DNA of 64,000 nt from Clytia hemisphaerica (taxonomy: Eukaryota; Cnidaria; Hydrozoa; Leptothecata; Clytiidae), in contig CACVBU010000236.1 in assembly GCA_902728285.1 (NCBI GenBank), positions 558,001-622,000 of the forward strand. The letters run 5' to 3'. Below are positions 37,801 to 43,130 of this stretch, in pieces. The position numbers and the translations under genes were made by a program. The notes under the pieces were generated by a model that was not told the DNA's origin, did not search any database, and was given only the letters and a program-made list of their open reading frames with translations. Position 1 is the stretch's first letter, and the number at the start of each line of letters is the position of its first letter.

Positions 37801-40800
37801 AATATGGGTTTTAAATATCGTGACTAGTGAATCCCTAGGTAGGAATGCACGAAGCCGACGAATAAGACCAATACCTTGATTGGCTTTTTTAATTTTTTCA
37901 TCAAGATGACGGTCAAAAGCCAGCTCTTGATCAAGTATGAGACCAAGATGTTTTTGATGATCTTGTCGAGCAATGGCTGCGTTGTTAAAATAAATTTCTG
38001 GAGGATCAGGTAGATTTATCCTCCGAGTGAAGTACACTTCAACAGCCTGTTTAGAAGGATCAGGGTTGAAGGTCATTTTCCATTGATGAGCCCACTCACT
38101 AACCTTCTGCATGTCACTGTTCAATTCGTTTGAACAGCGAATATGATCAAGGATAAGGGAGAATATTGACGAGTCATCAGCAAAAATTTTGATCATGGAA
38201 ATAATTCCTTCAGGGAGGTCGTTAATATATATCAGAAAGAAGAGCGGTCTTAGAATAGAGCCTTGAGGTACACCGGCCAAGACCTCCGTCCAATTGGAAG
38301 CTTGGCTATCAAGAACCACCCGCTGCAACCTACCTGAGAGAAAATTTTGAAGTAACGAGAGAAGGGGCCCGGACACACCATATGACTTAAGTTTGAAAAT
38401 CAGCCCATCGTGCCAAACTCTGTCAAAAGCTTTGGAAATATCAAGAAATACTCGATTGATCAATATTAAGAGCAGCTCATAGTCAATATTTTATATGGAT
38501 AACATTAATACAATAATGACCGGTTAGTGAGGGCTGTACTGAGAAATATTGCCCGAGGTCAAGTAACGACCGAGCTTGCGAGGTTGTTACGTTGACCGAG
38601 GGCAATATTTTCAGTACAGCCCGAAAAAAACCGGTCATTATTGTATTTGTTAACCGTTTCCTTCAGCTTCGATCGATTTTTAGCGCTTTATCCAGGAAAA
38701 ATGGCGAAATAAAGCGAACAAAACAAGCGAAAAGAGATAAAAAATTGTTATAATTTCTGACGTCAGAAATAAAAAATGAGAGAAAATGATGTCAACGCAT
38801 TGTTCATTTTCCTTTGAAAAAGTGACGTCACAATGAATTTTCCTGACGACGGGCAACTATGGGCAGTGTAGGCCCGTCGTCATGCGAAAAGAACCAATTG
38901 CATTGCGCAAAAAGTCGTGTAGCCCGCTTCGAGAAAGTAACCGGTTAACAATAATATATCAGGAGATATCAGGAGGAGTTTCAAGGTATTTTCTTGGCCG
39001 TCTTGGATGCCTTATACGGGTTTAGGAAAGTCTAGATCTCGCCTTTATCTAGTTGCTTTTTTTTGGTCCGTAAAATAATCATTTCATAATCTCTGTTCAA
39101 TTTATAGCAAATCGAAGATGATGGAGTGAACAGCCGTGTGGTGACATTATGTTTTGCGTTAAGTCTTCTTGGTAGACGGTTGTTGTCCACAGCTTCTAAT
39201 AATCAATGGAACGCTGCGTAAGTTGCAAATTCGGACCACTATAACTCGTTGCAGTCTATAACTCAAATGTCTCCTTAACTCGAATAAGTGTTATGGTCCC
39301 TTCATTTAGCAACGTCTTATAAACCTTACTCTATAACTCGAACAAATTTGTGTTCCCCGAGTTCGAGTTAAGGAGATTCCACTGCATTTTGATAAAGAGG
39401 CTTCTCCGTTTTGAAATTTTAGAATGAAAAGTTATATTTTTTCTTCTCACAGCAGAAAATGGCTCATAGTTAAGTTTTTTTCTTTTCAAATTGATTCCAA
39501 CCAATCATTCATCAATGTTAAACAAGGATAGGTATCGCTTCTTCTTCCCATTATTCAAACTGAAGGAGATACTCTTAAATCTTAATAATGACAACCCTTT
39601 TAAAAAAATTTTCAGGTTGAAATCGTTTTTACATGGACTACACGCTCTGTTCAAAGGGGATTTTCGAGTAACGGCGGCAAAGGACGAATGGGTGTTTGCT
39701 GATTCGGATTTAGCGCTGCTCAGACAAGTTGTGGCACCTGCGGTGCGAATGGCCCTTAAACTGCACCAGGTGAGAATTTTTACCCACGCTAATAAACGTT
39801 GAATTGACGAACAACCTTTACGGCTTATATTAAACAGTGAAAGTCACTGAAAGCGACAAAGGTTTTAAATCTTTCGAAAATTTTCACAGAACTTTGAATG
39901 AAAGAAAAGCCGAGATTTTTCGTACATAGCCTACGACTATGGTCTATGAGTTGACAGCTTTGTGAGACTTATGACTCGTAGTGAAGGCTTGTTGACTGAG
40001 ATTCCCTGGTGTTTGTGACACTGAATAATTCAAACCGATAACTAAGAAGTCATCGCTGTAAACTAGGGCGTGTCAGCTCAAATCCCCGCCCCTTCCATGT
40101 TCCGTTCAGTTGATAAATATTCGAGCCAGTTGACCGAGGATCCCGTGAAAGTCCTATATTACTGGGCTATTCATGCGGAATATTAACTCTATATAGAAGA
40201 CTGTCTACATTTGCTGAAGCCGTCTGTCCTTCTTTTGCAGGATCACTTCACATGTGTGGATGAATTTGATGATAACAATGTGTTGTACGACACTATATCT
40301 TCACATGAAGAACAATTTGTCATCTGTCATGAAGGACATCCCTCTTGGAGACAAGCCGTTCTCAATAACCGCTCCAACCTCCTCGCTTTAAGGTAACCTT
40401 AAAAAGGAGCGACCCATTCCGTCCATCTATGTGATCAATGTGTACCTCTTTTCACTAGATGTGATCATTGTATATCTCTTTTCACTAGATATGATCATTA
40501 TGTACCTCTTTTCACTACAATCAGTGCCAAAATACTTGGCACAAAAGGGAAATTCCCCACGAAATTTTATAACCACAAACAATTTGGAAGTGCTCTAAAT
40601 TAGGTTGGAAGGGTGGAGTTTTAACTTTAAGTTTCAACGCTAGACTTAAGACTTAGGACCTTAGGATCTGAGGATCCAATTGTTCAAAAATGGTCCGAGA
40701 GGGCTTGAAATATAGCCTAGAAACCAATTAATCCCTCCCAGATCGAAATATTCGATTAAACCAAGTTAAAGGCCCGAAATTGACATTCTCGCTCGAAATT

Positions 40801-43130: not shown

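Follow-up and report, generated by a model that had tools for sequence, protein, structure and literature searches.

An intron of the Pecanex gene of the hydrozoan Clytia hemisphaerica contains a tandem array of eight short units, the last of which ends in the acceptor of the following exon. We consider it probable that this array is a local minisatellite that was born on the intron/exon boundary, grew from there into the intron until it comprised eight units, and was later interrupted by a MITE, and that the last acceptor (ending at 41013) makes nearly all of the productive mRNA. All coordinates below refer to the window, i.e. the whole stretch of 64,000 nucleotides that was analysed.

Anatomy of the array and its host gene

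The array lies on the + strand within 40429–41013 and consists of units of 29–32 bp, which the MITE divides into a front group of three, U1 (40429–40458), U2 (40459–40488) and U3 (40489–40517), and a rear group of five, U4 (40861–40890), U5 (40891–40920), U6 (40921–40952), U7 (40953–40983) and U8 (40984–41013), with TRF copy numbers of 3.0 and 5.2 respectively. A previous sequence-only reading of this DNA had counted eight 30-bp units ending at the true acceptor, each with its own pyrimidine tract and AG, and split by a MITE. The count, the end point at 41013 and the split are all correct, yet a length of 30 nt applies to five units only (among them U4, which is identical to U2), since U3 measures 29, U6 32 and U7 31 nt. 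The tract CTCTTTTC or a variant of it is present in every unit, as is the motif TTCAC (8/8). An AG in register with the true acceptor ends seven of the eight units, including U7 (AG 40982–40983, within an AAG) and U8 (AG 41012–41013, within the canonical acceptor TAG); the exception is U3, which the MITE separates from its final G. The splice-site sequence of the neighbouring exon is part of the units of this tandem array, as in a VNTR of the ABCA7 type lying over a splice site.

The insert between U3 and U4 (40516–40859, + strand, including its two TA target duplicates) is a short element with 340 bp between the TA duplicates and 18-nt terminal arms that are 94% complementary. A genome search with this element returned 3895 first-look places, 40 of which were scored and showed 88–100% identity, the copy itself included. 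When other copies were cut out, 11 of 19 had TA at both ends and the remaining eight were cut short or imperfect at one end, and flanks differed between copies. Small size, terminal inverted repeats, TA duplication and high copy number together identify the insert as a MITE, although open frames of at least 60 aa extend into it. From its TA target preference, the element may be Tc1/mariner-like. Given that units continue on both sides of it, the data support the MITE having come in later than the array. As regards dating, the U2–U3 and U4–U5 pairs, on either side of the element, have one aligned base different, and this MITE copy is 4.7% off the majority of 19 other copies, with 10 private bases of 344, in an alignment containing at least one badly aligned row (maximum 0.427). 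The insertion also brought a new AG (40523–40524) behind the tract of U3, and a predicted RNA fold has the two MITE ends base-paired, which would place U3 close to U4 (z −2.8 relative to 20 shuffles).

The host gene lies on the + strand and ends near 43130. Upstream of the array is a Pecanex_C exon at 40242–40392 (start at 40241 in the exon-chaining script), which ends in LLAL plus AG and is followed by a donor GT at 40393; on the array side the exon is 41014–41092, and the next Pecanex_C exon lies at 41283–41523, its donor end being approximate. The exon-chaining script, which over-predicts exons, picked 41014–41092 without having been given it. Furthermore, the spliced peptide of the three exons matches Pecanex_C (PF05041) with 259.6 bits against a cut-off of 27, and its residues 1–142 align to profile positions 85–226 with no net gap, which places the boundary at 41013/41014. 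Relatives of the Pecanex exon were not confirmed in viral and prokaryote collections, and no match was found among solved structures at E values up to 1. Elsewhere in the genome there is a second, divergent Pecanex_C match (L025, G000:C523:445204-445419; 69.3 bits), perhaps a PCNX4-type paralogue, which we rejected as an outgroup because it is too different.

Several other features of the window were recorded. Between predicted Pecanex exons, on the − strand, there is a 508-aa open frame (36964–38490) that by eye is LINE-type reverse transcriptase-like, and downstream of Pecanex a 470-aa open frame (45244–46656) matches 7tm_1 (PF00001) with 54.9 bits and represents a class A GPCR-like gene. 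Scans of the window for Rfam families and tRNAs gave no match. At the last exon of Pecanex, two CAGs lie 6 nt apart at 42674–42681 (ends 42675 and 42681) and form a candidate in-frame tandem acceptor.

Proposed origin at the intron/exon boundary

Searches of the genome indicate that the array looks local. A pattern of the unit allowing up to 3 mismatches gave 7 matches in the window, compared to 0 in 100 shuffles, and the same 7 matches, all at this locus, in the whole 417-Mb genome (951 contigs), where its reversed control gave 0; U7 falls outside the 7 owing to an indel. A similarity search of the genome using 203 bases from the array as query found two matches and placed both at this locus. 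Neither approach, each of which would miss strongly diverged unit copies, found a second copy of the array locus in the 417 Mb. A dispersed satellite of close copies was consequently rejected, the unit having been found at this locus only.

Our preferred account of its formation, which is moderately supported and which we infer from sequence likeness, is duplication across the boundary. Approximately 20 nt of the intron end (the branch-point-like TTCAC, the pyrimidine tract and the AG), together with approximately 10 nt of the exon start, would have been duplicated in tandem, and the duplicated segment would then have expanded into the intron to give eight units, with the MITE inserting later at a TA between U3 and U4. 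Such a duplication predicts unit starts that copy the start of the exon, and the first 10 nt or so of the exon do resemble a partial ninth unit. Without gaps, U7 agrees with the first ten bases of the exon at 8/10 positions, a match equalled at 64 of 126,678 other 10-mers of the window on both strands (approximately 5e-4 per position) and at 2 of 3,310 positions that follow an AG; as U7 was the best-matching unit, the figure weakens to roughly 1e-3. U6 matches at 7/10, also without a gap. Conversely, U1, U2, U5 and U8 lack two bases here and have 6 or 7 mismatches of 10 in the ungapped comparison, which scored six units and left out U3 and U4 (U4 being the same as U2), although U8 and the exon share GTGATT by eye if a gap is allowed. 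Over 14 bases the match between exon and U7 is 9/14, equalled at 494 of 126,670 other places; the likeness fades after approximately 10 nt. The earlier proposal that unit starts resemble the exon start thus holds without gaps for U6 and U7 and not for the other four units scored. Its corollary, that the repeat spread from the intron/exon boundary, is favoured by the position of the acceptor within the repeat and by the 8/10 match of U7, and is weakened by the shortness of that match and by an ungapped register confined to U6 and U7. We regard the match between exon start and U7 as good, if not decisive.

A direction for the copying is suggested by the protein. Masking the exon-start residues R, V, I, D, D, G and T changes the PF05041 score by −4.2, −1.8, −0.9, −3.3, −2.4, −1.5 and −0.8 bits respectively, and masking Y changes it by +0.4 bits, the masking having been confined to exon-start positions. 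The loss of bits points to protein constraint on the exon start, which would make it a likelier source of the shared sequence than its recipient.

An alternative explanation is that a minisatellite of the ordinary intronic kind expanded or shifted until it abutted the acceptor, with its likeness to the exon start arising by chance. Tandem arrays with a period of 15–100 make up 2.7% of the window and 1.6% of a 200-kb portion of the same contig. In a placement test using 19 of 25 TRF rows (period of at least 15, after removal of overlaps, with the focal array entered as its two parts), at least one acceptor out of the gene's 20 was covered by a randomly placed array in 42% of trials, so the position of the array is by itself unremarkable. 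Similarly, an acceptor is found within 20 nt of 2 of the 19 arrays, where random placement gives a mean of 0.77 and two or more such arrays in 18% of trials. However, a chance encounter would not readily account for the exact register between the acceptor AG and the AGs of the units, nor for a match between exon start and U7 that exceeds chance, and we therefore consider it rather unlikely. Other arrays in the window include minisatellites of 20-bp period at 63440–63632 and 50111–50323 (about 9 and 10 copies; TRF), and three 92-bp tandem copies at 42382–42659 that are 98% alike (TRF) and stop 16 nt short of the last exon's AG at 42675, or 22 nt short of 42681; in contrast to the focal array, these 92-bp copies do not contain the acceptor.

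Predicted use of the repeated acceptors

The TTCAC of U7 (40976–40980, + strand), a branch-point-like motif match, has its A 34 nt upstream of the final base of the canonical acceptor, and the TTCAC of the preceding unit places an A 34–36 nt upstream of the last base for five of seven unit acceptors (40488, 40920, 40952, 40983 and 41013). For the acceptor at 40890, the candidate is a CTGAT in the end of the MITE, at 36 nt, and for that at 40458 no branch-point candidate was found within 15–60 nt upstream. TTCAC fits yTnAy, a motif that occurs at 23 per kb in the window and would be expected about 0.7 times per unit by chance. One AG intervenes between the putative branch-point A and the acceptor, 4 nt beyond the A (6 nt for 40890); an AG that near a branch-point A is likely too close for use. 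As the period of 30–32 nt approximates a normal branch-point-to-AG distance, each unit could give the next acceptor its branch point. A recursive-splicing ratchet was set aside, as the units by eye read AG|AT and not AG|GT.

Acceptor strength was scored with a model trained on 19 other acceptors of the gene, 18 of which were picked by eye from the exon-chaining output and one of which (42675) departs from the script's own choice of 42681; as the training set came largely from that script, the model is small, partly circular and weak. It gives 3.25 for 41013, compared to 4.53 for 40458, 5.44 for 40488, 5.44 for 40890, 3.25 for 40920, 4.09 for 40952 and 5.20 for 40983, and it gives 3.96 for the AG supplied by the MITE end (40524). 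Leave-one-out scores of the 19 training acceptors have a median of 8.2, with two below 3.25, and among the 3,338 AGs on the window's + strand, 450 score at least 3.25. By this weak model, the canonical site scores poorly and has no advantage over its copies. Since the upstream acceptors score as high as 41013 or higher, the sites themselves do not predict its near-exclusive use. A designed-library study reports no order preference between two acceptors that had both been given the consensus (PMC6783452).

The reading frames are informative as to which acceptors could serve the protein. Splicing to the AG at 40982–40983 adds 30 nt, which are in frame and open and encode ten residues, whereas the other five upstream unit acceptors (40952, 40920, 40890, 40488 and 40458) all reach a stop; translation thus bears out the earlier observations that this AG adds exactly 30 nt without a stop and that the next acceptor further upstream runs into one. 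The protein would require the last acceptor, 41013, which would make nearly all of the productive mRNA, and use of the five copies ending in stops would lead to premature termination and probably decay.

The suggested +30-nt isoform itself is not supported. The site at 40983 is an AAG, compared to 15 CAG, 4 TAG and no AAG among the 19 other acceptors of the gene (a set chosen in part with a model biased against AAG). The ten added residues would break up an otherwise colinear alignment to the domain, lowering the PF05041 score from 259.6 to 245.4 bits (−14.2), which is still well over the cut-off of 27. In human genes, moreover, in-frame tandem sites giving insertions of 3, 6 and 9 nt are reported to be selected against in structured protein (PMC2279118). 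That 40983 is a real alternative acceptor, yielding a +10-residue protein with a separate role, is consequently improbable to us, notwithstanding its open frame, a branch-point-like motif 35 nt upstream and a precedent in human ABCA7, where one VNTR unit is reported to be retained via a cryptic donor located one unit further along (PMC5954066). Its score of 5.2 exceeds that of 41013 and makes minor use plausible; we expect use of 40983 to be minor at most, and any such use would yield a rare +10-residue form.

A different proposition is that the array acts as a splicing brake, in which upstream acceptors send transcripts to decay by an amount set by the number of units. The five upstream unit acceptors that end in stops score at least as well as 41013 and would suit such a role, and the ABCA7 study describes an increase in exon 19 skipping with VNTR length, yet it also describes single-unit retention as unchanged with length (PMC5954066). 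In the units, 8 of 17 columns are variable in the front part and 3 of 13 in the part comprising the tract and AG (p = 0.26), so that the splice motif is not clearly kept and no clear sign of selection on the tract–AG part was found. With the sequence of a single assembly as its basis, we judge a brake to be very improbable. We are nearly as doubtful of the more elaborate idea of an acceptor turned minisatellite, in which self-contained 30-nt modules would hand the branch point on from one to the next, their number might change and thereby tune the amount of productive Pecanex mRNA, and the +10 protein would be a by-product. Most likely, we infer, a neutral minisatellite lies over the splice junction.

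Should RNA bear out the array of acceptors, the locus would offer a natural experiment on spliceosomal choice between numerous near-identical and evenly spaced acceptors. If 41013 alone proved to be used, the last acceptor would win without a better local score, which would implicate exon-side signals or decay of the remaining products.

Comparison with known systems

Tandem acceptors of the NAGNAG type lie 2–12 nt apart and originate mostly from point change, whereas in Pecanex whole modules about 30 nt apart would have arisen by duplication. The two have in common that nearby AGs are able to give in-frame insertions (PMC2279118; TassDB2, PMC2878309). In the Drosophila cases reported in PMC2891723, exonic AG/GY proto-sites were tandemly duplicated, creating new introns; tandem duplication likewise copies splice-site sequence there, although in Pecanex it is an existing acceptor that appears to have been multiplied inside an existing intron. 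A variant of MUC1 exon 2 shows splicing variation at the 5' end of the exon with a 9-residue in-frame insertion (PMC2538764), and the +30 reading of Pecanex would similarly be a short in-frame insertion at an exon 5' end; unlike Pecanex, the MUC1 insertion was proposed to result from a single-base variant, with no array at that site so far as described. No earlier case of an acceptor-carrying tandem array was found in the open-access literature among the matches listed.

The nearest case found is the VNTR in intron 18 of human ABCA7, for which a 25-bp unit that begins with the donor GT of exon 18 is reported, with single-unit retention seen as an isoform (PMC5954066). Like the Pecanex array, this VNTR sits at the edge of an exon and takes in its splice site, and the NAGNAG and Drosophila cases are more distant than ABCA7. 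The two arrays differ in that the ABCA7 repeat is on the donor side, with a frame-shifting unit of 25 bp, whereas that of Pecanex is on the acceptor side, with 30 nt in frame at 40983. They also differ in that length polymorphism and effects on RNA are demonstrated for ABCA7, whereas the Pecanex array is known here from one assembly. In its anatomy, the Pecanex array may be viewed as the acceptor-side counterpart of the ABCA7 VNTR, and, if RNA were to confirm it, would become the acceptor-side partner of that donor VNTR.
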